Shown here in pieces: positions 503 to 62,062 of a stretch of 64,000 nt of DNA; the stretch's first letter is position 1, and the number at the start of each line of letters is the position of its first letter. The DNA is from Fusobacterium massiliense (lineage in GTDB: Bacteria; Fusobacteriota; Fusobacteriia; Fusobacteriales; Fusobacteriaceae): the NCBI RefSeq assembly GCF_900095705.1, contig NZ_LT608327.1:124001-188000 (forward strand). The letters are read 5' to 3'. The translations under genes were made by a program, and so were the position numbers. The notes beneath the pieces are model-generated. The model was not told where the DNA came from. It did not search any database and saw only the letters and a program-made list of their open reading frames with translations.

Positions 503-570
503 TTATTAGTTCGAAGAGCCTGTGTTTATTGAGCTCGTAGAACTCATACGGCTGTCAAGAGACTTTATTT
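503..570 (+). repeat. Palindromic repeat family, copy 1 (left outer stem missing)
   Basis: Contains the inner part and right half of the family core: GTTCGAAGAGC, the apical loop, GCTCGTAGAAC, then CATACGGCTGTCAAGAGAC. The left outer arm (GTCTCTGACGTCCG) is absent and replaced by T-rich sequence. It lies between recQ and the permease gene, just after the recQ stop codon. Confidence 0.85.
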
Positions 571-571
571 A

Positions 572-2380
572 CTAAGGAAGTTTAGTGTACTGTAGTATTT
601 TTTCTAGGAAAATATCCCCATAACTTTTAAATTTCTGATTTCCTACCCCTTTTATTTTTAACATTTCCCATTTGTTTTTAGGTTTTTTCTCAGCCATTTC
701 AATCAAACTAACATCAGAAAAAATTATATAAGGAGCTACATTTTCTTTTTTTGATATCTCTTTTCGTAATGCATTTAATTCTTTAAAAAGAGCATTTTCA
801 AAATAATCAAATTCAACATTTTCATTTTCTTTTCTTTTTATTTTAAGACTGTCATCTAAAATTTTTTTATACTTCTCACCAAGCTTTAAAACTGGAAAAC
901 TTCCAGCACTCTGGTTTAAAAATTTTTCAGATATCATGTGATTTATAAAATCTTCTATCCATTCTTGCTTATATTCTCTCATTATTCCAAAGGTTGAAAT
1001 TTTATCCAAACCTTTTCTTAGCATTTTAGAATCTGCTCTTCCTAAAAGAATATTTGAAACAGTAGAAACTCCTAAATTTTCTCCTGTTCTTCCTACACAA
1101 GAAATTATTTTTTTAGCTTCAATAGAATAATCTTTTATATTTTTTTCTTTCTTACAATTTTCACAATATCCACAGTAGTCTCTTATCATTTTTTCACCAA
1201 AATATCTTAGTATATATTGCCTATAACAACTTGTAAGTTCAGCATATTCTATCATTTTTTTGAATGCTTTTTCTTTTTTTTCTTTATATTTAAAATCCTT
1301 ACCAGCAGTTTCTTTGTCAATTAAAAATTTTTGTACACTTTTATCTTTCTCGTTATAAATTAGTATAGCTTCAGCAGGAGCTCCATCTCTACCAGCTCTT
1401 CCTGCTTCTTGATAGTAAGCTTCTAAGTTTCCAGGAATATTGGCATGAATAATATATCTTATATTAGATTTATTTATCCCCATACCAAAAGCATTTGTAG
1501 CAACCATAATTTGTGCATCATCATCTAAAAACATTTTTTGATTTTCATCTCTTTCTTCTTTAGAAAGTCCAGCATGATACTTAACTACATTTCTACCTAA
1601 AGTTTTTAAAAATATATACATTTCTTCCACATTTTTTCTTGTAGAGCAATATATTATTCCAGATTTTCTATGATTTTGTGCTATATATTCTCTTATAAAA
1701 GGTTTTCCATCAATATCTAAATCCTTGTCAAGACCTGTATTATCAATTACTTTAAAATAAATATTATCTCTATTAAAGTAATCTGTAAAAACAATAGGAT
1801 TTTCCATACCTAATTTTTGAATGATATCCAATTTTATTTTAGGTGTTGCAGTTGCTGTTAATGCAACAATTTGTAAATTATTTTTATTAATTACTTTTAT
1901 AAAATCAGATATTTTGAGATAACTTCTTCTAAAATTTTCCCCCCATTGTGACACACAGTGAGCTTCATCTATCACAAGCATTGAAATATCAATATTTTTT
2001 ATAAATTGTAAGAAATACTCATTTTCTAATCTTTCTGGAGAAATATATAATATTTTTATTTTTTTTCTTTTTATTTTAAATAGAATTTGATTATATTCCT
2101 CCATAGATAAAGTTGAATTAAGATAGGCTGAATCTATTCCCACTAGTCTTAATCCATTAACTTGATCTGTCATTAATGATATTAATGGAGAAATAATTAT
2201 TGTTAAACCTTCAAAAATTAAAGCTGGAATTTGATAACAAATTGATTTTCCAGCTCCAGTAGTCATTATTCCTAAAACATTTCTTTTTTCTAAGATAGCA
2301 TCGATTATTTTTTCTTGACCTTCTCTAAAATTTTCATATCCGTAAAACTCTTTTAAAATTTTAAGTGCTTCTTTTTTCAT
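572..2380 (-). CDS. recQ: ATP-dependent DNA helicase RecQ
   Basis: A 602-residue superfamily 2 helicase that unwinds DNA 3'-5' in recombination and repair of stalled forks. Motifs appear in RecQ order: motif 0 FREGQEKII (residues 18-26), Walker A TTGAGKS (40-46), DEAH (138-141), the RecQ-specific aromatic-rich loop SQWGENFRRSY just after it, LTATATP, and motif VI with YYQEAGRAGRDG. The RQC zinc site is visible as Cys-containing segments (SCYRQYILRYFGE, then DYCGYCENCK), and the C-terminal ~80 residues look like an HRDC domain (WEMLKIKGVGNQKF). Full length for a bacterial RecQ with all three domains. A start at 2380 is preceded by AAGG. It is preceded by its own promoter-like sequence and flanked by repeat copies on both sides, so it is probably a single-gene unit. 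Confidence 0.96.
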   Translation of the reverse strand: MKKEALKILKEFYGYENFREGQEKIIDAILEKRNVLGIMTTGAGKSICYQIPALIFEGLTIIISPLISLMTDQVNGLRLVGIDSAYLNSTLSMEEYNQILFKIKRKKIKILYISPERLENEYFLQFIKNIDISMLVIDEAHCVSQWGENFRRSYLKISDFIKVINKNNLQIVALTATATPKIKLDIIQKLGMENPIVFTDYFNRDNIYFKVIDNTGLDKDLDIDGKPFIREYIAQNHRKSGIIYCSTRKNVEEMYIFLKTLGRNVVKYHAGLSKEERDENQKMFLDDDAQIMVATNAFGMGINKSNIRYIIHANIPGNLEAYYQEAGRAGRDGAPAEAILIYNEKDKSVQKFLIDKETAGKDFKYKEKKEKAFKKMIEYAELTSCYRQYILRYFGEKMIRDYCGYCENCKKEKNIKDYSIEAKKIISCVGRTGENLGVSTVSNILLGRADSKMLRKGLDKISTFGIMREYKQEWIEDFINHMISEKFLNQSAGSFPVLKLGEKYKKILDDSLKIKRKENENVEFDYFENALFKELNALRKEISKKENVAPYIIFSDVSLIEMAEKKPKNKWEMLKIKGVGNQKFKSYGDIFLEKILQYTKLP

Positions 2381-2422
2381 TATAACCTTCTTTGTTAAAA
2401 TACCGATTTTATCATATTTATT

Positions 2423-2451
2423 ATGATATCACACTAATAATTTTTGGTCAA
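2423..2451 (-). promoter_or_regulatory. Predicted sigma-70-type promoter of recQ
   Basis: On the minus strand TTGACC and TATCAT are separated by 17 bases, about 45 bases before the recQ start. Pattern match only. Confidence 0.55.
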
Positions 2452-2479
2452 ATTAATATGGACATATACATTTTTATTT

Positions 2480-2590
2480 TATAGGAAAGTATAAAAATAA
2501 ATAGCAAAATTAGTCTCTGATGTCCGTATTAGTTCGAAGAGCCTGTGTTTATTGAGCTCGTAGAACTCATACGGCTATCAAGAGACTCTA
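2480..2590 (+). repeat. Palindromic repeat family, copy 2 (complete, reference copy)
   Basis: Complete copy with the A/T-rich left arm (TATAGGAAAGTATAAAAATA...) and core at 2513-2586. The core folds as GTCTCT/AGAGAC, GAT/ATC, CCGTAT/ATACGG, GTTC/GAAC and GAGC/GCTC around a CTGTGTTTATTGA loop. Lies between recQ and the dprA-like gene. Confidence 0.95.
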
Positions 2591-2596
2591 TATAAT

Positions 2597-3526
2597 TTAG
2601 AAAAGCTTTATTTGTAGATTTTGAGAAAAATTATCATCAAGTAAGTATTTAAAAGTTTTTTCATCTTTCAATATAAATAAATCCTTTTTATATTTATTTA
2701 TAAAATCTTCGTTGAAATCGGAGATAAAGATTTTCTTTTTTTGAGCTTTTGCATATTTAAAAGTTTGAACAGTTCCACCTTTTAAAGCTGTTTGTCCTAT
2801 TATAATACCAGATGTTAAAGCTGATTGTAATCTATTTCTTTTCAATAGATTAAATGTGGAAATTTTTGTGTTTGGTAAAAGTTCTGATAATAAAAAACCA
2901 TTGTTTTTTAATATTTCTTCTGATAATTTTTTATTGTTGCAGGGATAAATTGCTGTATTTAAACCTTGTCCTAAAATAGCAGCTGTTTTTCCTAATGTTA
3001 CCCAATGACCTATTTCATCAATCCCTTTAGCTAAGCCACTAATATTGTAATAATTATTATTTTTTAAAAATTTTCCAACTTCTTTAACAAAATTTATTCC
3101 TTTTTCATTTGGATTTCTTGTACCAACTATTGCATAGGATTTAGAAAGTTCTTCTTCAGTAGGAAAATGTCCCTTTATATATAGTATAAAGGGAGGTTCT
3201 TTTATACCTATTAGTGATTTAGGATAATTTTTATCGGAGTAAAATAATAATTTAATATTTTCTTTTCTACATTCCTCTAATATTTTATTTTTTTCCATTG
3301 CCATAGAAAATAGGTTTTCTTTTTCAGTTAATTTTAAAATAATATTTATTTTTTCTGAATTGAAATTTTCTTTTAAAAAATAAAGTTTATCTTTTTCAGT
3401 AAGTCCAAAAAAGTTTATATTATTTTGTATGCTAAGATTAAAAATTTTATAGGCGATATTTTGTATTACGATATTGTTAGTTGAATAAAGATATGAAAAA
3501 ATAAAGAGTTCATCTTCGTTGTACAT
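2597..3526 (-). CDS. dprA: DprA/Smf-like DNA-processing protein (divergent, no C-terminal winged helix seen)
   Basis: A 309-residue protein with the Rossmann-type core of DprA, which binds single-stranded DNA and loads RecA during natural transformation. Visible landmarks: ILYIKG before the core, then YAIVGTRNPNEKG, ISGLAKGIDEIGHW, AILGQGLNTAIYPCNN, LLSELLPNT, RNRLQSALTSG and GGTVQTFKYAKAQKK, which match in order the family motifs GSR, SGLARGID, G.GLD..YP, FP.RNR..S.L and GS..TA. Several positions differ from the usual consensus (GTR for GSR, LLKRNR for FPRRNR), and the protein stops soon after the core. GGAGGTC lies just before the start at 3526. A specialised DprA-like paralogue is possible. 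Confidence 0.8.
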   Translation of the reverse strand: MYNEDELFIFSYLYSTNNIVIQNIAYKIFNLSIQNNINFFGLTEKDKLYFLKENFNSEKINIILKLTEKENLFSMAMEKNKILEECRKENIKLLFYSDKNYPKSLIGIKEPPFILYIKGHFPTEEELSKSYAIVGTRNPNEKGINFVKEVGKFLKNNNYYNISGLAKGIDEIGHWVTLGKTAAILGQGLNTAIYPCNNKKLSEEILKNNGFLLSELLPNTKISTFNLLKRNRLQSALTSGIIIGQTALKGGTVQTFKYAKAQKKKIFISDFNEDFINKYKKDLFILKDEKTFKYLLDDNFSQNLQIKLF

Positions 3527-3545
3527 AATTGACCTCCAAGCTCTT

Positions 3546-3660
3546 TATAGGAAAGTGTAAATTAAATTATATTAAAAATTAGCCTCTGATGTCCGTATTA
3601 GTTCGAAGAGCCTGTGTTTATTGAGCTCGTAGAACTCATACGACTATCAAGAGGCTTTAT
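3546..3660 (+). repeat. Palindromic repeat family, copy 3 (complete; GCCTCT/AGAGGC variant)
   Basis: Arm from 3546, core 3582-3655. The outer stem is GCCTCT paired with AGAGGC rather than GTCTCT/AGAGAC: both sides of one pair have changed. The inner triplet is GAT/ATC. Confidence 0.95.
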
Positions 3661-3663
3661 TGT

Positions 3664-3778
3664 TATATAAGTAAAGTATAAAATTAAATATTGAAGTATG
3701 CCTCTGATGTCCATATTATTTTGAAGATTTTTTGATTATTGAGCTTGTAGAACTCATACTGCTATCAAGAGGCCTCAA
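3664..3778 (+). repeat. Palindromic repeat family, copy 4 (diverged; GCCTCT/AGAGGC variant)
   Basis: In tandem with copy 3, core 3700-3773. Left half of the inner region has drifted (ATTATTTTGAAGATTTTTTG), but the outer pairs GCCTCT/AGAGGC and GAT/ATC are kept. It ends at the phnE stop codon. Confidence 0.85.
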
Positions 3779-5353
3779 TTATTTGTTAACTTTTTGTCTT
3801 ATAAAATAAGATATATTTTCTATTAAAATTATAACAAAAATTAGAATTAATAATAATATCCAAACTTTTTCCCAGTTTCTAAAAGCAATATTATTTATAA
3901 GAAGTTGCCCAATACCTCCAGCTCCAACCATTCCTAATACACTTGAATTTTTCATATTAGATTCAAATCTATACAATAAAACAGATATAAAATTAGTATA
4001 AGTTGCTGGAATCCATAATTTTAGATAAATATAGAATTTTTTTAAACCTAGGCTCTTCCCGTAGATTCCAAAATCATAGTCAACACTTTCTAGAATATCA
4101 ACATATACCTTAGTTAATACTCCGGTAGTATAAATATATAGTGCAAGAAAACCACTTATAAGTCCAGGACCAAAACCAGTAAAAAATAATATAGCAACTA
4201 TAACTGGAGGGAAAGTTCTTATAAAGTTTATAAGAATTTTTACTAAAAAAGATACTTTTTTACTTGAAATATTAGAACTAGCAAAATAACTTATTATTAA
4301 TGAAGTTGGTGCTGCAAAAATTGTTGCAAAGAATGCTACTAATAAACTATCCCATAGTGCAAATAAACCCTTTATTGAATAAGAAAAATCTATATTTGAA
4401 AACTTTTTCAAGAAAGTGGATAATCTCTCAATAAAAACAGGGAAAGATATTTTAGTGCTATCATTGTATAAAATTAATAAAGTAGTAATGATAAATATAG
4501 TTAGAAAAATTTTTGTTAGAAAAGCAGCTAATTTACTAAATTTGTATCCTTTATAAGTAGAAACTTTAATATAGTTATCTTTTTTTCTAAAAAACCAACT
4601 TATTGTATCCGTTATAAAAATAAAAATTAGTAGTATTAGAACGATAAAAGAAACTTTGTCATATCTCAAAAAACTTAAATCTTTCCATAATTCTTCTCCT
4701 ATACCACCGGCTCCAACCATTCCTAATACACTTGCACCTCTAATACTAGATTCTAGTATTAAGAAAAATAAGGAAACAATAAAAGGCTTTGATAGTGGAT
4801 AAACACAAGATTTTAAAAATACAAACTTAGAAAATCCAAAAGTCTTAAAAGCCAGTATTTTTTTTGAATCAATTTCCTCCAAATATTCTTTTAATAACTT
4901 AGAACTAGAGAAAAAAGTTATTATAAATAAACTTAAAAAACCTGTAAAGCTTCCAACACCTACTAGGCTTACTAATATTGCTGCTAATACCAAAGCTGGA
5001 ATAGTTCTAAAAGCTGTAAAAAAAATAGATAATATGTTGATTATATATTTATTCTTAAAAATATTTTTTGTCAAAAATGGAGAAAAAATTACAGCTATTA
5101 ATACCCCTAAGAATGAAGAGGAAAATGCAATTATAAAGGTTTCAAAAAGTTTAAAAAATACAATTTTATAGTCTTCAGTATCAAGTCTCATCATACTTAA
5201 AATCAAATTTTTTAATCTTGAAAATCCAATTATATAATCTTGAAAATCTAGATTAAGAGTAAAAAAGAATAATAAAATTATAGAAAAAGCTAATAAATAT
5301 TTAATTAAAATTTTATTCTTTTGTGTTTTGATAAACTTCTCTAATGTCATCAT
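3779..5353 (-). CDS. phnE: Phosphonate-type ABC transporter permease, two PhnE domains fused in one chain
   Basis: A 524-residue membrane protein made of two homologous PhnE-like permease halves, roughly residues 20-260 and 275-520. Each half contains the characteristic sequences: RTIPALVLA and RTFPPVIVA, and the ABC-contact loop ending VLGMVGAGGIG. PhnE normally functions as a homodimer of about 270 residues, so this chain can supply both halves of the channel. With phnC and phnD it forms an importer of the phosphonate/phosphite/phosphate-ester class. The gene overlaps phnC by 41 bases, indicating translational coupling. The start ATGATG at 5353 follows AGAGGT. No C-P lyase genes are present, so the substrate cannot be read from context. 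Confidence 0.88.
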   Translation of the reverse strand: MMTLEKFIKTQKNKILIKYLLAFSIILLFFFTLNLDFQDYIIGFSRLKNLILSMMRLDTEDYKIVFFKLFETFIIAFSSSFLGVLIAVIFSPFLTKNIFKNKYIINILSIFFTAFRTIPALVLAAILVSLVGVGSFTGFLSLFIITFFSSSKLLKEYLEEIDSKKILAFKTFGFSKFVFLKSCVYPLSKPFIVSLFFLILESSIRGASVLGMVGAGGIGEELWKDLSFLRYDKVSFIVLILLIFIFITDTISWFFRKKDNYIKVSTYKGYKFSKLAAFLTKIFLTIFIITTLLILYNDSTKISFPVFIERLSTFLKKFSNIDFSYSIKGLFALWDSLLVAFFATIFAAPTSLIISYFASSNISSKKVSFLVKILINFIRTFPPVIVAILFFTGFGPGLISGFLALYIYTTGVLTKVYVDILESVDYDFGIYGKSLGLKKFYIYLKLWIPATYTNFISVLLYRFESNMKNSSVLGMVGAGGIGQLLINNIAFRNWEKVWILLLILIFVIILIENISYFIRQKVNK

Positions 5354-6062: not shown

Positions 6063-6110
6063 GTTTATCACCTTCAATTGTTTGTAAATAAAGCATTTAT
6101 ATATTAATAA

Positions 6111-6132
6111 AGGGGCTGTTATAACAACCCCT
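6111..6132 (-). terminator. Intercistronic hairpin between phnD and phnC (leaky terminator or mRNA-stabilising stem)
   Basis: AGGGGCTGTTA pairs with TAACAACCCCT with one mismatch. On the minus strand it is followed by only a weak T tract (TTTATTAA). Its place directly after the binding-protein gene suits the usual excess of binding protein over membrane components; that role is inference. Confidence 0.6.
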
Positions 6133-7115: not shown

Positions 7116-7232
7116 TATATAAGAAAGTATAAAAAATAAATAAAGAAAATTAATCTCTGACGTCCGTATTAGTTCGAAGAGCCCGTGTTCATTGAGCTTG
7201 TAGAACTTATACGGCTGTCAAGAGAGTTTATT
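7116..7232 (+). repeat. Palindromic repeat family, copy 5 (complete)
   Basis: Arm from 7116, core 7153-7226 with ATCTCT on the left and AGAGAG on the right, so the outermost pair is lost. Inner pairs GAC/GTC and GTTC/GAAC are kept. The loop reads CCGTGTTCATTGA. It lies between the nanQ-like stop codon and the phnD promoter. Confidence 0.93.
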
Positions 7233-7234
7233 TA

Positions 7235-7696
7235 TTAAAATTCTACCTTAAATATTACTTTTTTAATTTCCTTAGGTTCATCAACTGCTAAAAGAGCAAT
7301 ATGTGGCTCATAAGGAAATAATATTAAAAAATTATTTTTATTTAAAATTAATTTAGTTTGATCTTTTATATCAGATTTTACTAAAGTATAATCTTTCTCT
7401 TGATTATAACTTTGAGTTTCGATAGTATTGTCAATGGAAGAGTAGTTTATTGCCTCTTCCCCTTCAAAAACAATATGAATATCAATATATCTTTTATGAT
7501 ATTCTAGTTCTTGACCTATATTTATTCTTGTTTCAGGTTTTTCAGGACAATTAAAAAATATTTTTTCACCATCAACAATATTTTTATCAAAATTATGTTT
7601 TAAATATTTTCTTTCTTTTATAAAATCAATTGCTATATCAAGATTTTTATTTATTCCTTTGTAAATATCAATATTTTTTAAATCATCGTAAATCAT
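7235..7696 (-). CDS. YhcH/YjgK/YiaL family protein (NanQ-like sugar anomerase)
   Basis: A 153-residue cupin-fold protein of the YhcH/YjgK/YiaL (DUF386) family. Diagnostic segments are ELEYHKRYIDIHIVFEGEE and FLILFPYEPHIALL, which carry the conserved metal-binding His and Glu residues. The E. coli relative YhcH (NanQ) speeds interconversion of sialic acid anomers. Here the gene is divergent from nagA, so a role in N-acetylneuraminate or amino-sugar catabolism is a reasonable inference, but the exact substrate is not shown. The start is preceded by AGAGGTTGAG. Confidence 0.85.
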   Translation of the reverse strand: MIYDDLKNIDIYKGINKNLDIAIDFIKERKYLKHNFDKNIVDGEKIFFNCPEKPETRINIGQELEYHKRYIDIHIVFEGEEAINYSSIDNTIETQSYNQEKDYTLVKSDIKDQTKLILNKNNFLILFPYEPHIALLAVDEPKEIKKVIFKVEF

Positions 7697-10814: not shown

Positions 10815-10920
10815 AAAAGTTTAAATTTAAATATTATAAATTAGTCTCCGACGTCCGTATTACTCTGGAGAGGATTTCAGTGAGCTCGGAAGAGTCATAC
10901 GGCTGTCAGGAGACTTTATT
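10815..10920 (+). repeat. Palindromic repeat family, copy 6 (subfamily B)
   Basis: Core 10844-10914. Outer stem GTCTCC/GGAGAC, GAC/GTC. The inner stem is CTCT/AGAG where subfamily A has GTTC/GAAC, and the loop is GATTTCAGTGA. All replacements keep base pairing. It sits between bioD and bioA. Confidence 0.93.
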
Positions 10921-10961
10921 TATAGGTAAATTATTGAGAAAAAGAAAGGAGATTTAGTCTT

Positions 10962-12296: not shown

Positions 12297-12341
12297 CTAA
12301 AGTATATGATGTAGTTATAGTTGAAAATTGATAAAATAATA

Positions 12342-12456
12342 AATAAAGTCTCTCGATAGCCGTATGAGTTCTACGAGCTCAATAAACACAGGCTCTTTGA
12401 ACTAATACGGACATCAGAGACTAACTTTTATTATTTAATTTTATACTTTTTTATAG
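12342..12456 (-). repeat. Palindromic repeat family, copy 7 (complete, reverse orientation)
   Basis: Core 12348-12421, with the arm on the right (to about 12456). Stem pairs GTCTCT/AGAGAC and GAT/ATC. Follows the bioA stop codon and could terminate transcription from that side. Confidence 0.93.
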
Positions 12457-12459
12457 AAT

Positions 12460-12525
12460 AAATAAAGTCTCTTGACAACCGTCAAAGTTCTACGAGCTCT
12501 AATACGAATGTCAGGAGACTATTTT
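12460..12525 (-). repeat. Palindromic repeat family, copy 8 (apical part deleted)
   Basis: Tandem with copy 7. Core 12468-12519 retains outer stem GTCTCT/GGAGAC (one wobble) and GAC/GTC, but the left inner strand and loop (about 22 bases) are missing between GAGCTC and TAATACG. Confidence 0.85.
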
Positions 12526-12526
12526 T

Positions 12527-13126
12527 TTATTTATAGTATTTTTCAACTTCCTCTGAATCTTTAAATCCTTGTGCTTTAGCAAGATTATCCATATTTTTAA
12601 TAACTAAATTTATATTTTTTTCTTTAGAATTTTCTATATGTTTTAAATATAATTTTAAAGTTTTTTCAGAATAGGATAATAGTTCACCTTTTAAATAAGT
12701 TTCTATAGATGTATCAATATCATCGTCATCTTTAGAGTATAAAGGTCTTCCCATTGAAGAAAAAATTGGGAATCTTTCAAAAAAATCTTCTTCCCACTTC
12801 ATATAAATCAACATTATTTTATTAACTAAACTATTTTTTTCTTCAGAAATATTTTTTAAATAAATTTTAATTCTTTCATATTCTTTAGGAGAATTATACC
12901 TCATCATTTCTGCATATTTTATAAATAAAGGATTGTATTCTAAATTTAAATCATCTAAGTATGATAATAAAGTTTCCTCATTAAAAGTTAGCCACTGAGA
13001 TTTTCTCATAATAATAAAGTCTTCTTTGTTATCCTGACAACTAGCTCTTCCACCAATATTATTAAGGTTGGAGAAAAAGTTCCATTCTTTCTCTAATATT
13101 TTTTCTATTATCAGATTTTTTTCCAT
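12527..13126 (-). CDS. DUF4125 family protein
   Basis: A 199-residue predicted cytoplasmic protein with the DUF4125 pattern: an N-terminal KEWNFFSNLNNIGGRASCQ segment, then MRKSQW and LLSYLDDL, a YAEMMRYNSP segment and a central FPIFSSMGRP sequence. No catalytic motif of a known enzyme is evident and there is no signal peptide. It lies 22 bases downstream of the TPR-DUF4037 gene, and I recall the two families occurring side by side in Firmicutes, so the proteins probably act together. Function unknown. An AGGAGG lies 12 bases before the start, which is a rather long spacing. Confidence 0.75.
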   Translation of the reverse strand: MEKNLIIEKILEKEWNFFSNLNNIGGRASCQDNKEDFIIMRKSQWLTFNEETLLSYLDDLNLEYNPLFIKYAEMMRYNSPKEYERIKIYLKNISEEKNSLVNKIMLIYMKWEEDFFERFPIFSSMGRPLYSKDDDDIDTSIETYLKGELLSYSEKTLKLYLKHIENSKEKNINLVIKNMDNLAKAQGFKDSEEVEKYYK

Positions 13127-14984: not shown

Positions 14985-15085
14985 GTAAATTTAGATAAAA
15001 AATAACCCTTGACGTCCGTATTATTGCTCAAAGAGTCTATTTTATTAAACTCGTAGAACTTATACAGTTGTCAAGAGACTTTATT
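14985..15085 (+). repeat. Palindromic repeat family, copy 9 (degraded)
   Basis: Recognisable from CTTGACGTCCGTATTA to TTGTCAAGAGAC (end 15079). Outer left arm changed to AACCCTT, and the inner strand reads GCTCAAAGAGTC. GAC/GTC pairing is kept. Confidence 0.8.
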
Positions 15086-15090
15086 TTTTA

Positions 15091-16893
15091 TTAGTCATTC
15101 AATTTTAAAACAGATACAAATGCTTCTTGTGGAATTTCAACATTTCCTATGCTCTTCATTCTCTTTTTACCTTCTTTTTGTTTTTCAAGAAGTTTTTTCT
15201 TTCTTGTTATATCTCCACCGTAACATTTTGCTATAACATTTTTTCTATATGCTTTTATAGTTTCTCTAGCAATAATTTTTGAACCTAACGCTGCTTGAAT
15301 TGGAATTTCAAATTGTTGTCTTGGAATAACTTCACTTAATTTTTGACATATAGCTTTTCCTCTGTAATAAGCATTATCTACATGTGCTATAAATGAGAAT
15401 GCATCAACAGGTTTTCCAGAAACTAAAATATCTACTTTTACAAGATTAGAAACTTTATATTCACTTAATTCATATTCAAATGAAGCATATCCTTTAGTTC
15501 TTGATTTTAATTTGTCATAAAAATCAATTACTATTTCTGCAAGAGGCAATTCATATGTAAGCATAGATCTAGTTTCATCTAAATAATCCATTGATATAAA
15601 TATTCCCCTTTTTTCTTGACAAAGTTCCATAACATTTCCAACATATTCTTTAGGAACTATAACTTTTCCCCTTATATATGGTTCTTGAATAGTTATTTTT
15701 CCTCTGCCTTGTTCAGGGAACTCACAAGGGTTATCAATAATAGCTTCTTCTTTATCATCTATACTTACTTTGTATTCAACTGATGGTGTTGTTGAAATCA
15801 AATCGATATTGTATTCTCTTCTTAATCTTTCAACAATAATTTCCATATGTAACAAACCTAAGAAACCACATCTAAAACCAAATCCTAAAGCTAGAGATGT
15901 TTCAGGAACAAAAGTTAATGAAGCATCGTTTAGTTGTAATTTTTCTAGAGCTTCTCTCAATTCTTCATAATCATCAGTAAATAATGGATATATTCCAGCA
16001 AATACCATTGATTGAGCAGGTTTAAATCCTTCTAAAGGAAATAAAGCAGGATTTTTAACGGTTGTTATTGTATCTCCAACTCTTGTATCATGAATAGTTT
16101 TTACTCCAGTTATAATATATCCAACTGAACCACTAGTTAAACCATCTGTTGATTTCATTGTTGGAGAAAAAATTCCAACTTCTAAGACATCTAATTCTTT
16201 TTCAGTTGACCAAATTTTTATTTTATCTCCTTTTTTTATAGAACCGTCTAAAACTTTTACATAAGTTACAACTCCTCTATAATCATCAAAGAAAGAATCA
16301 AATATTAATGCTTTTAATGGAGCATTTTCATCATAGTCGGGAGCTGGTATTCTTTGAACAACAGCTTCTAGGATATCTTCAATACCTATACCATTTTTAG
16401 CAGAAGCTAAAACAGCATCATCTGCTGGTAAACCAATTATATCCTCTATTTCTTTTTTTACTTTTTCTGGCTCAGCAGCGGGTAAATCTATTTTATTAAT
16501 TATAGGTAAAATTTCTAAATTGTTTTCTATTGCAAGATAAACATTTGCAAGAGTTTGAGCTTCAACTCCTTGAGCAGCATCTACAACAAGTAAAGCTCCT
16601 TCACAAGCTGCAAGAGATCTTGATACTTCATATATGAAATCCACGTGTCCTGGAGTATCAATTAAGTTTAGTTCATATTCAATGCCATCTTTTGCTTTAT
16701 AAAATAAAGTTACTGCTTGAGCTTTTATTGTTATTCCTTTTTCTCTTTCAAGTTCCATAGAATCTAATATTTGTTCTTTCATATCTCTTTCAGCAACAGT
16801 TCCTGTGTATTCTAAAAGTCTATCTGCAATAGTAGATTTTCCATGATCTATATGTGCAATTATTGAAAAATTTCTTTTATTTTTTTGTAGCAT
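15091..16893 (-). CDS. lepA: Elongation factor 4 (LepA), translational GTPase
   Basis: A 600-residue translational GTPase that acts on ribosomes and in initiation or back-translocation under stress. G1 is [10 protein letters not shown]2/G3 regions include [11 protein letters not shown] and DTPGHVDF, G4 is NKIDLP; the LepA-specific C-terminal domain ends in [19 protein letters not shown] choose ATG 16893 ([17 protein letters not shown]), the standard LepA N-terminus, because GGAGG lies six bases upstream; the upstream ATG at 16905 overlaps that ribosome site. A consensus promoter lies 240 bases upstream, so the leader includes two nested repeat copies. Confidence 0.97.
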
Positions 16894-16911
16894 TATAGCC
16901 TCCATTTTTTT

Positions 16912-17122
16912 ATTTATAAGAAAGTATTTAAAATTAGTCTCTGGTGTCCATATTAGTTCGAAGAGCCTATGTTCTTCTATAGGAAAGTATAAAAATAAAT
17001 AGCAAAATTAGTCTCTGACGTCCGTATTAGTTCGAAGAACCTATGTTTATTGAGCTCGTAGAAGTCATACGGCTGTCAAGAGACTTTATTTAATTGAGCT
17101 TGTTATCAAGAGACTTTATTTG
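16912..17122 (+). repeat. Palindromic repeat family, copy 10 (outer copy, interrupted by copy 11)
   Basis: Left half 16912-16974 (arm, GTCTCTGGTGTCC, GTTCGAAGAGCCTATGTTC) and right remnant 17093-17122 (ATTGAGCTTGT then TATCAAGAGAC). Joining the two restores the loop GTTCATTGAGCTT seen intact in copies 5 and 16. The right inner strand has an additional deletion. Confidence 0.85.
16975..17092 (+). repeat. Palindromic repeat family, copy 11 (complete, inserted inside copy 10)
   Basis: Complete element: arm TTCTATAGGAAAGTATAAAA..., core 17011-17084 with GTCTCT/AGAGAC and GAC/GTC, tail TTTATTTA. Its ends mark the extent of an element that can insert: about 118 bases. Confidence 0.88.
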
Positions 17123-18599: not shown

Positions 18600-18721
18600 T
18601 CTATATAAAAATAGTCTCTGACGTCCGTACCAGTTTGAAGAGCCTGTGTTTATTGAGCTCGTAGAACTCATACGGCTGTCAAGAGACTAATTTTGCTATT
18701 TATTTTTATATTTTTTTACAG
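18600..18721 (+). repeat. Palindromic repeat family, copy 12 (core inverted relative to its arm)
   Basis: Core 18614-18687 reads in the forward orientation (GTCTCTGACGTCCG...), but the characteristic arm lies on its right as TAATTTTGCTATTTATTTTT, the reverse complement of the usual left arm. GAC/GTC pairing. Confidence 0.9.
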
Positions 18722-18757
18722 AAAAAAAGGTTGTTACAAATTAAATTGTAACAACCT
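18721..18757 (-). terminator. Rho-independent terminator of hutU
   Basis: Perfect 12-bp stem AGGTTGTTACAA / TTGTAACAACCT with a six-base loop, followed on the minus strand by seven T. Confidence 0.92.
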
Positions 18758-20801: not shown

Positions 20802-20844
20802 TATTAATTTCCTCCTAATTTTTTTATAAAATTTTAATTTATTG

Positions 20845-21066
20845 ATTTAAAAATAGTTCGTTATAACCAGATTTCTTAACGATTAAAAATCAAGAGTTCG
20901 CTACAAATTTGGCATCAGTAAGAAGCTCTAAATGAACAAGTTCATTAAAAGCTTCTAAGATCGCTAACTTGCTAACAAGTTAGCTCAGACACGCCAAGAT
21001 TTGTTCGGCTAACTCTATTTGATTTTTAATCTAAAATCTGGAAAAATAATTCACTTATTTTTAAAT
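20845..21066. repeat. Large branched palindrome (~222 nt), second repeat-like family, one copy here
   Basis: Nested inverted repeats from outside in: ATTTAAAAATA/TATTTTTAAAT, CCAGATTT/AAATCTGG, GATTAAAAATCAA/TTGATTTTTAATC, AGTT/AACT, ACAAAT/ATTTGT and TTGGC/GCCAA. Inside are two independent hairpins: GAAGCT...AGCTTC enclosing ATGAAC/GTTCAT, and GCTAACTTG/CAAGTTAGC. The predicted fold is one long stem ending in two hairpin branches. No reading frame is evident. It fills most of the hutH-hutU gap. Confidence 0.85.
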
Positions 21067-21078
21067 TATCCAAAAGAT

Positions 21079-21152
21079 AGCCCCGATGTCCGTATTAGTT
21101 CGAAGAGCCTGTGTTTATTGAGCTCGTAGAACTCATACGGCTATCAGGGGCT
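21079..21152 (+). repeat. Palindromic repeat family, copy 13 (GCCCC/GGGGC variant, no arm)
   Basis: Core only. The outer stem is AGCCCC paired with GGGGCT: one base pair shorter than usual on both sides and with two T-A pairs replaced by C-G. GAT/ATC and GTTC/GAAC are kept. The usual A/T-rich arm is not recognisable. Confidence 0.93.
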
Positions 21153-21167
21153 TATAATGTAGTTAAA

Positions 21168-22703
21168 TTAAAATTTTAGTTCTCCTATTGCTTTTTCTAC
21201 ATTATCTACAACTGCATTAGTTTTTATTAAATCTTCAGCAGCATGGATATCTATATACATAGGTCTATCAACACTTACATAAGAAATTAATTCTCTTACT
21301 TTATCATAAGCTACTTTAGTTGCTGGAGATAATTTTTCTTTAGCTCCTTTTAAGTCTATAGCTTGACAAGCAGTAATTAATTCCATTCCTATAACTTTTC
21401 TTACATTTTCAAGTATATCTTTTGATTTTTTAGCAGCTATTGATCCCATAGAAACATGGTCTTCTTGGTTAGCAGAAGTTGGTATTGAGTCAACAGAAGC
21501 TGGATGTGCTAAAACTTTATTTTCTGATACTAATGCAGCTGCACTGTATTGAACTATCATGAATCCAGAATTTAATCCACCTTGTTCAACTAAGAATGCA
21601 GGCAATCCATGGTTGATAGCTGGGTTTACCATTTTTTCTATTCTTCTTTCAGAAACATTTGCCATTTCAGCAAGAGCTATTCCTAAGAAATCAAATGGTA
21701 GTGCCATAGGTTGTCCATGGAAGTTTCCACCAGATATAACTTCGTCAGTATCAACAAATATTAATGGGTTATCTGTTACTGCATTTATTTCTATTTCAAC
21801 TTTTTGTTTTACATATTCTAATGTATCTTTACTTGCACCATGAATTTGAGGTATACATCTTAAAACATATGAATCTTGTACTCTTTCAACACCTTGTTTA
21901 GTAACATTTGTACTTCCTGCTAAAATTCTTCTCATATTTTCAGCTGTATTTATTTGACCAGCATGTCCTCTTACTTCACTTATTCTTGGATCATAAGCAT
22001 CTATAATTCCATGTAATCCTTCCATAGTTAATGATGCTGCAACATCTAAGTGTTTAGATAAATTGATAGCATCGTATAGAACGTGAGCACCTGTTGAAGT
22101 TAATGCTTGAGTTCCGTTTGTAAGAGCTAAACCTTCTTTTGAAGATAGAGCTTCAATTGGTTCTATTCCTGCTTTAGCTAATGCATCTTTAGCTTCTAAC
22201 AATTCACCTTTGTAGAAAGCTTTACCTAATCCAATTAGGACTAAAGACATATGAGCTAGAGGAGATAAATCTCCAGATGATCCAACTGAACCTTTTTCTG
22301 GTATCCAAGGAGTTACTTCTTTATTAAGTAATTCAACTAGTTTTTCAATTACTATTCTTCTTGCCCCTGAGTAACCTTTAGCTAAGTTTACAGCTCTTAA
22401 AAATACTACACCTCTTGCTATATCAATAGACATAGGATTTCCTACACTACAAGAGTGGCTCATTACTATATTTTTTTGTAATTGACCAGTTTGTTCTTTA
22501 GAGATGCTGATTTCAGCAAATTTTCCAAAACCAGTAGTTATTCCATAAGATACTTTTGCCTCATCAACATATTTGTCAACTAAAGCTCTAGCTTTATCAA
22601 TTTTTTCGTAAGCATCTTGAGAAATTTCTACCTTATACCCCCTTCTTGTTACATTGATTAAGTCTTCTAAAGTGATTCTTTTACTACCTAAAACAACTTT
22701 CAT
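21168..22703 (-). CDS. hutH: Histidine ammonia-lyase
   Basis: A 511-residue MIO-dependent lyase that deaminates histidine to urocanate, the first step of histidine fermentation. Family landmarks: YGITTGFGKFA (catalytic Tyr loop), NIVMSHSCSVG, the prosthetic-group loop KGSVGSSGDLSPLAHMS at about 138-153, LTNGTQALTS, QDSYVLRCIPQIHGA and NPLIF. The group-forming triad reads Ser142-Ser143-Gly144, not the usual Ala-Ser-Gly. The start at 22703 is preceded by GGAGG. hutU follows in the same direction; hutI and formimino-transfer genes are outside the window. Confidence 0.95.
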   Translation of the reverse strand: MKVVLGSKRITLEDLINVTRRGYKVEISQDAYEKIDKARALVDKYVDEAKVSYGITTGFGKFAEISISKEQTGQLQKNIVMSHSCSVGNPMSIDIARGVVFLRAVNLAKGYSGARRIVIEKLVELLNKEVTPWIPEKGSVGSSGDLSPLAHMSLVLIGLGKAFYKGELLEAKDALAKAGIEPIEALSSKEGLALTNGTQALTSTGAHVLYDAINLSKHLDVAASLTMEGLHGIIDAYDPRISEVRGHAGQINTAENMRRILAGSTNVTKQGVERVQDSYVLRCIPQIHGASKDTLEYVKQKVEIEINAVTDNPLIFVDTDEVISGGNFHGQPMALPFDFLGIALAEMANVSERRIEKMVNPAINHGLPAFLVEQGGLNSGFMIVQYSAAALVSENKVLAHPASVDSIPTSANQEDHVSMGSIAAKKSKDILENVRKVIGMELITACQAIDLKGAKEKLSPATKVAYDKVRELISYVSVDRPMYIDIHAAEDLIKTNAVVDNVEKAIGELKF

Positions 22704-24657: not shown

Positions 24658-24740
24658 TAGTAATAAATAGTAAAAATTAGTAATAAATAGTAAAAATTAG
24701 TTTCTGACATCCGTATTAGTTCAGATCCTGTGTTTATTGA
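24658..24740 (+). repeat. Palindromic repeat family, copy 14 (left half only)
   Basis: Starts with an arm in which the 20-base unit 24661-24680 is repeated exactly at 24681-24700. The core begins GTTTCTGACATCCG at 24700 and stops at the apical loop (CTGTGTTTATTGA), where copy 15 begins. Confidence 0.85.
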
Positions 24741-24855
24741 TTTTATAGAGAAATATAAATTTAATATGAAAATTAGTCTCCGATGTCCGTATTACTTTGG
24801 AGAGCATTTCGGTGAGCTCGGAAGAGTCATACAGCTATCAGGAGACTTTATTTAA
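24741..24855 (+). repeat. Palindromic repeat family, copy 15 (subfamily B, complete)
   Basis: Arm from 24741, core 24776-24846. Outer stem GTCTCC/GGAGAC, GAT/ATC, inner stem CTTT/AGAG (one wobble), loop GCATTTCGGTGA. It starts exactly where copy 14 is broken. Confidence 0.92.
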
Positions 24856-24882
24856 TAAATTATAAATTTTGTATAAATATTT

Positions 24883-28270: not shown

Positions 28271-28390
28271 TCTATAGAAAAGTATAAATTTAAATAGCAA
28301 AATTAGTCTCTGACGTCCGTATTAGTTCGAAGAGCTTATGTTCATTGAGCTTGTAGAACTTATACGGTTGTCAAGAGGCTTTATTTATAA
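28271..28390 (+). repeat. Palindromic repeat family, copy 16 (complete)
   Basis: Arm from 28271, core 28306-28379. Outer stem GTCTCT/AGAGGC (one T-G wobble), GAC/GTC; loop TTATGTTCATTGA. Sits between the preceding terminator and the cobalamin promoter. Confidence 0.92.
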
Positions 28391-29828: not shown

Positions 29829-30165
29829 TGAAAAAAGAGATGGAGAATCTACAGAATTTATTTTATTTATGTTAGAAATTATAAAAGAAACTTTAATAGA
29901 ATTAGTTGAAAAACAAAAAATGACCGATAAAATGACCGATAAAATGACCGATAAAATGACCGATAAAATGACCGATAAATTTAAAGAAAGAATAGAAATA
30001 CTTATCAAATATTTAGGTCAAAATGATTCTATTAGCAATAAAGAGGCACAAAGCTTGTTGGGTATCTCAGAAGCTACAGCAAAGAGATTTTTAAATAGTT
30101 TAGTCAAAGAAAATCTTCTAGAAGCTGTTGGAGAATACAAAGTAAGAAAATATATAAAAAAATAA
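29827..30165 (+). pseudogene. C-terminal remnant of a Fic-type (or similar) protein with winged helix
   Basis: The frame is open from about 29815 but has no convincing start; the first ATG (29869) would give 98 residues. It reads DGESTEFILFMLEIIKETL, similar to the end of the Fic domain of Fic/DOC proteins (pattern STPFIEFML), then (MTDK)5, then a winged-helix end (NKEAQSLLGISEATAKRFLNSLVKENLLEAVG). Fic and AlbA_2/AAA-type proteins often carry such MTDK/VTDK repeats before a C-terminal winged helix. The catalytic Fic motif and the rest of the N-terminus are missing, and the piece directly abuts the cbiA stop codon, so I read it as a broken gene left in the operon. A short, functional regulator is a weaker alternative. 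Confidence 0.55.
29920..29979 (+). repeat. Five exact tandem copies of a 12-bp unit (MTDK-encoding)
   Basis: ATGACCGATAAA is repeated five times without change, inside the Fic-type remnant. Such 12-bp arrays can expand or contract in frame by slippage. Confidence 0.95.
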
Positions 30166-44280: not shown

Positions 44281-44395
44281 TATAGAAAAGCATAGCTTTA
44301 AATGGCTAAAATTAGTCTCTGATGTCCGTATTAGTTCGAAGAGCCTGTGTTTATTGAGCTCGTAGAACTTATACGGCTGTCAAGAGACTTTTTTA
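44281..44395 (+). repeat. Palindromic repeat family, copy 17 (complete)
   Basis: Arm from 44281, core 44314-44388. GTCTCT/AGAGAC; the inner triplet is GAT on the left and GTC on the right, a T-G wobble intermediate between the two paired states seen elsewhere. Confidence 0.93.
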
Positions 44396-44587
44396 ATAAA
44401 AAAATCTATTCTATAAATTACTTTTTAATGTTAAAATATAATAGAAGTTTTTTGCTTAATAAAATTTATCTAAAAATATTTAACCATAAAAGGTGGAGGA
44501 AGTATTAAAAAAGGTAATTTAAAAATGGATAAAACATACACAAAAATCAATTAATATAAATTATAAGAAAAGGAATTGAGGAAAATA
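44396..44587. other. Intergenic region upstream of rlmN
   Basis: A/T-rich. A TATAAT near 44436 may be the -10 of the rlmN operon promoter, without a good -35. A nine-codon frame begins at ATG 44525 (MDKTYTKIN) after AAAGGT; it may be a chance frame. Nothing else recognised. Confidence 0.4.
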
Positions 44588-56567: not shown

Positions 56568-56570
56568 AAA

Positions 56571-57071: not shown

Positions 57072-57093
57072 AAATTTTGAAAGTAATTTTTTA

Positions 57094-57210
57094 TTCTATA
57101 GGAAAGTATAAATTTAAATATTAAAATTAGTCTCTTGACAGCCGTATGAGTTCTACGAGCTCAATGAACACAGGCTCTTCGAACTAATACGGACGTCAGA
57201 GACTTTGTTT
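57094..57210 (-). repeat. Palindromic repeat family, copy 18 (core inverted relative to its arm)
   Basis: The usual left arm (TCTATAGGAAAGTATAAATTT..., from 57094) is followed by a core (57130-57203) in the reverse orientation: GTCTCTTGACAGCCGTATG ... ACGGACGTCAGAGAC. GAC/GTC pairing. Confidence 0.92.
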
Positions 57211-57249
57211 ACCTATAGCTCAGTTTATAGTAAAAGAAAGGAATAGGAA

Positions 57250-58485: not shown

Positions 58486-58496
58486 GGAGTATGAAA

Positions 58497-59789
58497 ATGG
58501 ATAAAGTAAAATTAGCAAAAAATTTAATGAATTTTATAGATGAAAGTCCTTGTAATTATTTTGCATGTATAAGTGCAAGAAAAATCCTTGAAGAAAAAGG
58601 ATATACAGAGCTATTTGAAAGTGAAACTTGGAAGTTAAAAAAAGGAGGAAAATATTTTTTAACAATAAATGATAGTGCATTAGTAGCCTTTAAAATAGGA
58701 AATAAAAAAATATCTGAAACTGGATATAAAATAGATGCATCTCATACTGATAGTCCTGGATTTTTAATAAAGCCAAATCCTGAAATGAATAAAAAAGATT
58801 ACATAGTTTTAAATACAGAAGTTTACGGTGGACCTATTATGAGCACTTGGTTTGATAGGCCTTTATCGTTTAGTGGAAGAGTTTTTGTTGAAGGTAAAAC
58901 AGCTTTTGAACCTAAAAAATATTTTATAAAATACGATAAAGATTTATTTATAATTCCATCACTTTGTATTCATCAAAATAGATCTGTTAATGATGGAATG
59001 GCTATAAATGCTCAAAAAGATACACTTCCTTTAATAACAATATTAGATGATAAGCAAAAAGAATTTTCTTTTAAGAAAATTTTAGCTGACTACTTAAAAG
59101 TAGAAGAAGATAAAATTTTAAGTTATGATTTAAATTTATATTCAAGGGAAAAAGGAAGTTTTGTTGGATTAAATCAAGAGTTTATTTCAATAGGTAGATT
59201 AGATAATTTAGCCGCATTTCATGCTGGAATAATGGCTCTTGTTGATAGTAAAGATAAGAATAATACTTGTATAGTAGTAGGATATGACAATGAAGAAGTT
59301 GGTTCAAGTTCAGTTCAAGGAGCAGATAGCCCAGCATTAAAAAATATATTAGAAAGAATTTCTAATGCAATGGGATTGTCATTTGAAGAACATCAACAAG
59401 CAATTGTAAATTCTTTTGTTATATCAAATGATGCTGCTCATTCAATTCATCCAAATTATTTAGAAAAATCAGATCCAACAAATGAGCCAAAATTAAATCA
59501 TGGACCAATAGTTAAAATGGCAGCTAATAAGTCATACATAACAGATGGATATTCTCATGCAGTTATAGAAAAAATAGCAAAAGAGGCAGGAGTTCCTATT
59601 CAAACTTTTGTAAATCGTTCTGATTTAAAAGGAGGAACAACAATAGGCCCTATTCAACAAGCCCATTTAAGAATACTAGGAATAGATATAGGAAGTCCAT
59701 TACTTTCTATGCATTCTGTTAGAGAACTTGGTGGTGTAGACGACCATTTACATCTATATAAATTAGTTAGTAAGTTTTTTGAAATATAA
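58497..59789 (+). CDS. M18 family aminopeptidase
   Basis: About 430 residues; a zinc aminopeptidase of family M18 that trims acidic or neutral residues from peptide N-termini in the cytoplasm. Metal-binding segments: DASHTDSPGFLIKPNPE, RLDNLAAFHAG (bridging Asp), GYDNEEVGSSS (catalytic and metal-binding Glu), SNDAAHSIHPNY and the final SMHSVREL. I start at ATG 58497 because AAGGAG is seven bases upstream; the ATG at 58491 is only one base from it. It follows serine dehydratase closely, so the pair links peptide breakdown to serine fermentation. Confidence 0.93.
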   Translation: MDKVKLAKNLMNFIDESPCNYFACISARKILEEKGYTELFESETWKLKKGGKYFLTINDSALVAFKIGNKKISETGYKIDASHTDSPGFLIKPNPEMNKKDYIVLNTEVYGGPIMSTWFDRPLSFSGRVFVEGKTAFEPKKYFIKYDKDLFIIPSLCIHQNRSVNDGMAINAQKDTLPLITILDDKQKEFSFKKILADYLKVEEDKILSYDLNLYSREKGSFVGLNQEFISIGRLDNLAAFHAGIMALVDSKDKNNTCIVVGYDNEEVGSSSVQGADSPALKNILERISNAMGLSFEEHQQAIVNSFVISNDAAHSIHPNYLEKSDPTNEPKLNHGPIVKMAANKSYITDGYSHAVIEKIAKEAGVPIQTFVNRSDLKGGTTIGPIQQAHLRILGIDIGSPLLSMHSVRELGGVDDHLHLYKLVSKFFEI

Positions 59790-59866
59790 TACTAAATTGT
59801 TATAGAAACTCTATTTTTATAATATAATTATCGAAATAATAAAAAAATAAATAGGGAGGTAATATT

Positions 59867-61930
59867 TTGGAAGCAAAAACTCAAAAAATTGAAGTATTAA
59901 TGAGTTCAACAAATACGATATTTTCTATTCCAGTTTATCAAAGAGATTATAATTGGGAAGAAAGACAGTGTAAAACTTTATTTAAGGATATTTTGAACAT
60001 TGGAAAAGATATATCTAAATTTTCTCATTTTATTGGAAGTATAGTTTATATTAAAGATAATGTATATGTTACAGATGATAAAAAAGATTTAGAAATAATT
60101 GATGGGCAACAAAGAATAACAACTTTAACTTTATTATATATTGCACTTTATCATGTGCTAAAAAGTAAGGAAGAATATAAAATAAAAGCTGAACAAATAT
60201 ATGAACAATACTTAATAAACAAATATTCAGAGAAAACTATAAAATTAAAATTATTACCTCCAGAAGAAAACTTAATAATTGTAGATATGATATTAAGAGA
60301 AGATTTTAAGAATTTAACTGATTATGAAGAAAGTAATTTTTATAAAAATTATATGTTTTTTAAAAATGAATTTGATAAAGTAGATAAAGAAGAAATTAAA
60401 AATATGGTTGAATGTATAATAAATGGCTTTAATAAATTAATTTTTATTGAAATTAGTCTTGAAAAAGGAAAAGATGAACCACAAAAAATTTTTGAAAGTC
60501 TTAATTCAACTGGGTTAGCATTATCACAGGCAGATTTGATCAGAAATTATATTTTAATGGGGTTAGAAAGAAATATCCAAAATGAAGTATACAGAAATTA
60601 TTGGCTATCTATTGAGAATAATTGTAAAGTAAAGAATATTCAGAATAAAAATATTGAAACTTATACTTCTGATTTTATTAGAGACTACTTAACATTTAAA
60701 ACAGGTGAAATTCCCTCTAAAAATAGAGTTTTTGAAATATTTAAAAAATATTATATAAGAGAAAATAAAGAATTAGAAGAATTAAAAAATATAAAGAATG
60801 TTTCTTATATTTATAGTTTAATTTTAAATCCTAGTTTAGAAAAAAATAAGGAACTTAAAGAAGAATTAAAAAATTTACAATTATTAGGATACTCTGTTAT
60901 AAATCCATTTTTAATAGGTCTTATCAAATTATTTAAAGAAGATCAAATTAAAGAAAATGAAATGTTAGAAATATTAAATTTGATCCAAAGTTATTTATGG
61001 AGAAGATATATAACAGGTATTCCAACAAATTCTTTAAATAGTATATTTCAAAATTTATACTTAAGAATTTTTGAAAGAAAAAATTTAGAAAATAGCCATA
61101 TAGCTGAACTTGAAAAAATATTATTAGAGAAAGATTTCCCAACAGATGAGGAACTTAAAGAAGAATTGAAAATTAAAAATATTTATAAAGAAAAAGAAAG
61201 ATTAAAATATATATTCAAAAAGATAGAAAATTATAATCATAAAGAACTTATAGATTTTGATAATGAGAATATTACCATTGAACATATTTTTCCACAAAAA
61301 CCAACAGATGACTGGGAAAGAGATTTAGGAAATCAAATAGAGCATATGATAACCTTTAAAGATACTATTTCTAATCTAACTTTAACAGGAAGTAATCCAA
61401 ATTTAAGTAATAAAACTTTTAAAGAAAAAAGAGATTTTTCAAACCATGGATATAAAGATAGTAAATTATATGTAAATAAATATTTAGCTGATTTAGAAAA
61501 ATGGGATATTACAGAAATGGAAAAAAGATTTGAAATTCTTTTCAGTGATATATTAAAAATCTGGAAAAGACCCGAAGTAAAAAATAAAACTTCAGAAAAT
61601 TTAATATTTTTTTTAAGTGGGAATATAACTTCAGGTAGTGGTAGATTACTTGAAGATGGTAAAAAATTTGAGCTATTCAAAGATTCTGAACTAATGTTAG
61701 AAGAAAAAATAGCTATTGGTATATTAAATGAAAGTTTAAAAGTTTTAGAAAAACTTAAAGAAAAAAAATTAATAGAAAAATTAGAAAATAAGTATATATT
61801 GAAAGAGAATTATATTTGTAACTCGCCTAGTGGAGCTTTAAAATTAGTTTTAGGTTACTCTGGAAATGGTTGGAGTAGTTGGAAAACTTATGATGGAAAA
61901 ATTTTAGATGAGCTTAGAAAAGAAAAATAA
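59867..61930 (+). CDS. DUF262 / DUF1524 / DUF4357 protein, GmrSD-like putative defence nuclease
   Basis: A 687-residue protein with three parts. N-terminal DUF262 (GmrS-like, ParB-type fold): FSIPVYQRDYNWEERQ and the conserved DGQQRITTLTLL (79-90). Middle DUF1524 with His-Asn-His nuclease pattern: ITIEHIFPQKP at about 468-478 and ISNLTLTGSNPNLSNKTF. C-terminal DUF4357 (residues ~580-687): GSGRLLEDGKKFELFKDS and SPSGALKLVLGYSGNGWSSWKT. GmrSD enzymes cut DNA carrying modified cytosines; a similar anti-phage role is inference. Start is TTG 59867 after GGGAGG. No methyltransferase is adjacent, fitting a type IV-like enzyme. Confidence 0.85.
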   Translation: MEAKTQKIEVLMSSTNTIFSIPVYQRDYNWEERQCKTLFKDILNIGKDISKFSHFIGSIVYIKDNVYVTDDKKDLEIIDGQQRITTLTLLYIALYHVLKSKEEYKIKAEQIYEQYLINKYSEKTIKLKLLPPEENLIIVDMILREDFKNLTDYEESNFYKNYMFFKNEFDKVDKEEIKNMVECIINGFNKLIFIEISLEKGKDEPQKIFESLNSTGLALSQADLIRNYILMGLERNIQNEVYRNYWLSIENNCKVKNIQNKNIETYTSDFIRDYLTFKTGEIPSKNRVFEIFKKYYIRENKELEELKNIKNVSYIYSLILNPSLEKNKELKEELKNLQLLGYSVINPFLIGLIKLFKEDQIKENEMLEILNLIQSYLWRRYITGIPTNSLNSIFQNLYLRIFERKNLENSHIAELEKILLEKDFPTDEELKEELKIKNIYKEKERLKYIFKKIENYNHKELIDFDNENITIEHIFPQKPTDDWERDLGNQIEHMITFKDTISNLTLTGSNPNLSNKTFKEKRDFSNHGYKDSKLYVNKYLADLEKWDITEMEKRFEILFSDILKIWKRPEVKNKTSENLIFFLSGNITSGSGRLLEDGKKFELFKDSELMLEEKIAIGILNESLKVLEKLKEKKLIEKLENKYILKENYICNSPSGALKLVLGYSGNGWSSWKTYDGKILDELRKEK

Positions 61931-61963
61931 GACTATGAAATAATTATTAGTTTCTTTACAAAT

Positions 61964-62017
61964 AAAAAAGGTATTTATTACTATTATTGGTTAATAGAAT
62001 ATAGATACCTTTTTTTA
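61964..62017. terminator. Bidirectional terminator between convergent genes
   Basis: A long imperfect stem, GGTATTTATTACTATT with AATAGAATATAGATACC, flanked by A and T runs on both sides, so it can serve both the DUF262 gene and the converging threonine aldolase gene. Confidence 0.88.
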
Positions 62018-62020
62018 ATA

Positions 62021-62062
62021 ATCTCTAAACTTGTAGAACTCATATGGCTATCAAGAGATTTT
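62021..62062 (+). repeat. Palindromic repeat family, copy 19 (remnant)
   Basis: The left side is reduced to ATCTCT, joined directly to the right half (AACTTGTAGAACTCATATGGCTATCAAGAGAT). The outermost pair is A-T (ATCTCT/AGAGAT) where most copies have G-C. Confidence 0.82.

Follow-up and report, generated by a model that had tools for sequence, protein, structure and literature searches.

The closest described relatives of the elements reported here are IS91, IS801 and ISFv1, insertion sequences (IS) which, like the fusobacterial IS91-type elements treated below, encode a Y2 HUH transposase with a zinc-binding domain that reads toward the origin end. The IS91 family also resembles them in the lack of terminal inverted repeats and in a landing site similar to the terminus. 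Replication of IS91 begins at the origin end and stops at the terminus or at look-alike sequences (PMC3189936, PMC5714925), and for IS801 short derivatives of 229, 360 and 679 nucleotides (nt) with an intact origin end have been described (PMC3189936). In this work, 64,000 nt of Fusobacterium massiliense (RefSeq assembly GCF_900095705.1, contig NZ_LT608327.1, positions 124,001 to 188,000), in the following called the window, were analysed with respect to a family of palindromic repeats. With good confidence, these ~118-nt repeats can be regarded as non-autonomous IS91-type elements (Helitron-like; rolling-circle, Y2 HUH), which combine a borrowed origin end with a terminus hairpin.

The initial annotation had listed about 19 copies of a ~75-nt palindromic core, all lying between genes and not recognised as a named repeat family. 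A covariance model (CM) built from 14 window copies gave matches at 16 of the 19 listed places, and the remaining three (16912, 24658 and 62021) were truncated copies. The family is therefore real, and so is its intergenic placement, with 0 of 125 sampled copies lying within an open reading frame (ORF) of at least 70 amino acids. The comparison with Rfam likewise revealed no family reaching its gathering score. The core as described exists, but it represents only one half of a unit of ~117-119 nt (~118 nt), the overlooked other half being a conserved left end TATAGGAAAGTATAAATTTAAA. The left edge of the copies lies ~28 nt ahead of the hairpin, starts with TATAGGAAAGTATAAATTTAAATA and is preceded by a T-tract TTTTTTATT, with T in 70-93% at positions -9 to -4. 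Besides this T-tract, the listing had missed the head-to-tail neighbours, whose usual spacing of 118-119 nt equals the unit length, the inversion of the core between the outer parts in about a tenth of the copies (e.g. 57122 and 18607), and the location of the copy at 21072-21160 inside a larger element. The listed places were confirmed, although the minus-strand orientation of three core matches (12340-12428, 12459-12526 and 57122-57210) had gone unmentioned. Since the ~118-nt unit has no terminal inverted repeats (outermost left CTATAGGAAAG and right TTTATTTATT are non-complementary, and the inverted repeats are internal), a classical DDE-type miniature inverted-repeat transposable element was rejected.

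The genome contains well over 150 copies (at least 150 scored in the genome-wide listing). About 125 copies were scored in 267 kb of the genome picked for richness in copies, and scaling the 16 matches per 64 kb of the window to the 1.81 Mb genome gives ~450 copies by extrapolation. A CM search of 60 other genomes of Fusobacteriaceae, including two congeners (G001 and G002), yielded no match, and the core pattern was absent from the GTDB set. A contig scan with RecQ gave no fusobacterial relative.

When relatives were searched with the window DNA, congener G001 turned out to have the left end but not the core. The 19-nt motif of the left end showed 185 occurrences in the window's genome compared to 1 for the reversed control, and the family-wide motif search revealed an enrichment in the window's genome (G000), G001, G037, G044 and G054. 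In G037, the left end starts a longer many-copy element encoding Y2_Tnp (PF04986) and Zn_Tnp_IS91 (PF14319), and the transposases hold the HUH (NPHIH) and Y2 (YLGRY) motifs. The window's genome comprises IS91-type elements with Y2_Tnp of its own (5 Y2_Tnp matches), whose end is identical to the miniature left end in 22 of 22 nt, and IS91-type elements from further genera of Fusobacteriaceae bear this end as well. On the opposite side, the right end of the IS consists of a hairpin plus TTTTTTTATT. This is exactly where, in G037, IS copies arranged in tandem (period 1442) are joined to the next left end. Perfect head-to-tail arrays of the full IS with four units of this period were observed in G037 (L178 = G037:C1:1274200-1281300; also L181), and G027 showed arrays with a period of 1438; the transposases of such arrays are identical, with 404 residues. 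With 45 Y2 matches and a tandem period of 1438, the IS of G027 agrees with the published ISFv1, which is 1.44 kb long and has 47 copies in F. varium Fv113-g1 (PMC5720691).

A clear landing preference was observed for the full IS91-type elements. In four genomes other than the window's, 31 of 31 insertions lay directly behind a hairpin (threshold of -8 kcal/mol or better) plus T-tract, i.e. 18 of 18 in G027, G025 and G041 and 13 of 13 in G037, where for four insertions this structure was the right end of a further IS copy instead of an intrinsic terminator. The same arrangement was seen in 3-14% of shuffled IS flanks. For the left-end motif, the amounts were 12 of 14 in G044, 5 of 6 in G054 and 17 of 26 in G001. 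The miniature copies were located behind a terminator hairpin in 24 of 67 cases and behind another element in 14 (38 of 67 together), compared to 6% for their right flanks in the same test, and a T-run of at least 4 just ahead of the left edge was present in 52 of 67. One IS copy in the window's genome (L160) was inserted exactly behind a miniature core; the core therefore serves as a landing site like the IS terminus. While the published targets of the IS91 family are tetranucleotides (GAAC, CAAG and similar), the target here is a hairpin plus T-tract, which adds terminator targeting to a family known for tetranucleotide targets and for carrying neighbour genes. No published report on terminator targeting by IS91-family elements was found, with literature coverage being weak for subscription papers.

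Group IIC introns also insert directly behind intrinsic terminators, so that a retroelement derivative of this type would show the same landing preference. These introns differ by their reverse transcriptase and intron RNA, neither of which was found here: RVT_1 was absent from the window's genome and the two congeners, and the Rfam comparison of the window gave no match to a group II intron RNA. Moreover, the ends of the repeats match those of an IS91-type IS, so that such an origin is hardly conceivable. A group II intron or retron as such was rejected for the absence of RVT_1 from the genome.

The copies in the window, with their CM matches where obtained, are the following.

483..571, + strand: copy with decayed left part; CM match, 69.5 bits.
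2480..2596, + strand: reference copy with left (origin-like) end 2480-2505 TATAGGAAAGTATAA, hairpin core 2512-2588 and T-rich tail; CM match 2506-2594.
3546..3663, + strand: complete copy, first of a head-to-tail pair, spacing 118; CM match 3575-3663.
3664..3781, + strand: second of this pair, more diverged; CM match 3693-3781, 80 bits.
7116..7236, + strand: complete copy, its end adjoining the stop codon of 7235-7696(-); CM match 7146-7234.
10815..10922, + strand: copy of the GGAGAC subfamily with decayed left end; CM match 10837-10922.
12338..12458, - strand: complete copy, the downstream partner in a head-to-tail pair, left end on the right; CM match 12340-12428(-).
12459..12527, - strand: short, diverged upstream member of this pair; CM match 12459-12526(-).
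14985..15087, + strand: old copy beside the lepA gene (15091-16905; LepA by Pfam); CM match 14998-15087.
16912..16974, + strand: truncated copy with left end and left arm only.
16977..17094, + strand: complete copy inserted behind the truncated 16912 copy; CM match 17004-17092.
18605..18725, - strand: copy with core (reading +) inverted relative to the outer parts, left-end sequence on the right; CM match 18607-18695.
20829..21176, + strand: element B, distinct from the family, ~350 nt long and with inverted terminal repeats AAATTTTAATTT; 12 near-identical copies.
21072-21160: core copy within element B; CM match.
24658..24740, + strand: truncated copy.
24741..24856, + strand: complete copy of the GGAGAC subfamily; CM match 24769-24854.
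28271..28389, + strand: complete copy; CM match 28299-28387.
44281..44396, + strand: complete copy directly after a terminator hairpin plus T-tract AAGCTGTTGTAAAAAATACAACAGCTTTTTTATT; CM match 44308-44396.
57096..57212, + strand: complete copy, left end reading +, core inverted (reading -); CM match 57122-57210(-).
62021..62062, + strand: internally deleted copy with outer stem ATCTCT/AGAGAT.

Divergence was greater in the upstream partner for 14 of the 19 informative head-to-tail pairs (p 0.03). Tandem duplication was rejected as the source of the pairs, since their members are unequally diverged and frequently belong to different subfamilies; a new element inserting beside one already present is the better fit, and the pairs would then result from landing behind the hairpin of another element. 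At the 10815 site, two congeners carry no element between the orthologous genes, and G002 lacks the element at the junction of the 57096..57212 copy. The presence and absence at the orthologous junctions 10815 and 57094 are in line with insertion. Behind lepA, at the position of the 14985-15087 copy, both congeners have an ordinary terminator, as if the copy had replaced it.

Altogether, the shared end, the landing preference, the arrays, the presence or absence between species and the Y2 transposase genes in the genome are evident from the sequence itself. From these observations we infer that this IS91-type transposase moves the element, that the core acts as terminus and that rolling-circle steps are involved. 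The IS91-family transposase would recognise and nick the left end TATAGGAAAGTATAAATTTAAA as origin end, the palindromic core and the tail TTTATTTATT would form the terminus end, and the miniature element would, by analogy to IS91, be moved in trans. The transposase would then join the origin end to targets resembling its own terminus, i.e. a hairpin plus T-tract provided by a host intrinsic terminator or by an earlier copy. The insertion behind genes and the head-to-tail arrays could be explained by this resemblance between landing site and terminus, and landing just behind gene terminators could be the reason why a small genome tolerates hundreds of copies.

Several observations weigh against this assignment. 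An in-frame TGA is present in the transposase copies that could be read in the window's genome, and none was seen intact. In congener G001 left ends occur, but no Y2 transposase was found. Core and IS terminus hairpin are alike in arrangement but not similar in sequence. In addition, for 29 of the 67 miniature copies no strong hairpin and no other element lies ahead, although most of them still follow a T-tract. Finally, due to the T-rich flanks and the distance of the relatives, a base-exact empty site was not obtained, and the absence of a target duplication is thus unsupported.

The in-frame TGA occupies a tryptophan position, which is GQ(W)KYH in the window's genome (L004, L160, L162, L180) and DLK(W)NPH in eight G037 copies (L163 and relatives). 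The TGA-bearing transposase is probably a broken copy amplified in trans, for which the repeated hit on tryptophan codons is odd. In G001, ~30 left ends are followed by different repeated sequences, e.g. GAACTCTAACATTTT or AGTTAGCTGACAAAGTCAACT plus a T-tract (L091, L098, L146, L148, L151, L156 and L158). This suggests that G001 has non-autonomous families of its own, despite the missing Y2 transposase.

Folding of the core was far better than that of shuffled sequences, with z-scores of -4.7 and -5.6 as RNA and -5.5 as DNA. The two-sided pair changes reported in the initial annotation could be reproduced: in 14 copies, 95% of the pair cells were paired and double changes occurred at 9 pairs, while 0 of 500 shuffles reached values as high. 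A tree-aware null model was calculated on a tree of 108 distinct copies by relocating the changes on the branches (our own implementation along the lines of R-scape, using 12 simulated alignments). Under this model, covariation with E<0.05 remained in only 4 of 26 pairs, all of the outer stem (9:108, 11:106, 14:104 and 18:100 in columns of alignment A2; rough E-values 0.02-0.04). The inner-stem pairs were not significant, because they change together in one subfamily, and the switch from GTTC/GAAC to CTCT/AGAG amounts in essence to a single change in a subfamily. The importance of the folded form is supported, and the covariation of the outer stem survives the phylogeny-aware test, but the claim of strong evidence went too far for the hairpin as a whole.

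The same alignment bears on hairpin-templated repair, already raised in the initial annotation, or template switching as a means of keeping the arms complementary without selection. Exchange across the arms does occur, as the inversion of the core in about one tenth of the copies demonstrates. Nevertheless, two mismatches within the stem (T20.C98 and T27.C85) and a bulged A (A103; all in columns of alignment A2) are unpaired in ~95% or more of the 108 copies, and only 2-3 copies show their conversion into a pair, while neighbouring pairs co-vary. Repair that leaves these positions uncorrected is a quite improbable source of the complementarity.

A conserved and co-varying stem could also belong to an RNA with a host function, either a regulatory RNA or a terminator or stabiliser of 3' ends, which is spread and kept by selection on transcripts. 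The stable hairpin with its T-rich tail just behind stop codons, the covariation of the outer stem and the 15087 copy occupying the place of the congeners' ordinary terminator are in agreement with this. Such a function would leave the conserved left end and the link to the IS unexplained; furthermore, Rfam gave no match, the family is absent from every other genome searched, many copies lie behind an already complete terminator, and copies occur in both orientations. A host-function RNA is therefore considered unlikely. Of the two forms left open by the initial annotation, RNA or DNA hairpin, the evidence favours the DNA hairpin, with a use in transposition, and not a regulatory RNA, with a secondary role of the cores as terminators being possible. 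For the IS91-type elements assumed here, the covariation would reflect the need for a paired terminus in the copies that spread, and the stem would be conserved and co-varying since a copy lacking a functional terminus hairpin would fail to spread. Covariation of repeats within one genome can hence reflect selection for mobility instead of RNA function, which calls for caution in covariation-based RNA discovery.

The present repeats are palindromic, intergenic, high in copy number and restricted to one species, which would also suit elements like the repetitive extragenic palindromic (REP) sequences and REPINs of Pseudomonas and E. coli, which are mobilised by RAYT, a Y1 HUH transposase. Like the elements as proposed here, REPINs and BIMEs are palindromes between genes which an HUH transposase mobilises in trans, but they depend on a Y1 enzyme and comprise a shorter unit with paired palindromes. 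RAYT was not found in the window's genome, in which Y1_Tnp is represented by a 38-residue fragment only, and the unit described here is much longer than REP and has a non-palindromic IS91-type end. Mobilisation by RAYT is consequently highly improbable. Compared to the miniature derivatives of IS801, which are internal fragments of the IS, the terminus hairpin of the present elements is new and hundreds of copies exist. Non-autonomous Helitrons share one origin end, a hairpin near the other end, many non-autonomous copies, arrays and, putatively, the lack of a target duplication (PMC5714925 and general knowledge). In contrast to Helitrons, the miniature elements are bacterial, have no helicase domain and land behind terminators, so that the likeness concerns the mode only.

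Within the Fusobacteria, a 131-bp repeat described for F. nucleatum subsp. polymorphum (PMC1924603) is likewise intergenic, present in high copy number and of similar length. As far as a comparison by description goes, it may be a parallel case; identity is unlikely, with the core being absent from the other genomes searched.

In a wider sense, one abundant group of 'mystery palindromes' in bacteria could have arisen in this way, namely from an IS end combined with a hairpin, with a safe harbour behind terminators. A more general proposal, for and against which we see about equal weight, is that a fusobacterial IS91-type clade reads 'hairpin plus T-tract' by its shape, both as element end and as landing site. 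Host terminators could then be used as target or captured as new end, and non-autonomous elements could freely evolve new terminus hairpins, with the spreading ones doubling as portable terminators.

Element B, although containing a core copy, was rejected as source of the family, since it is a separate inverted-repeat element merely carrying this copy. At the orthologous site, neither of the congeners G001 and G002 has it. Its copies comprise 280-350 nt with inverted terminal repeats AAATTTTAATTTGTTGAT / ATAAATTAAAATTT, and the genome contains ~11 of them outside the window (among them L044, L045, L047, L048 and L051); the target is possibly TA. Apart from these elements, a 12-bp tandem repeat AAAATGACCGAT was observed at 29905-29988 within a small ORF (29869-30165) matching HTH_DeoR.
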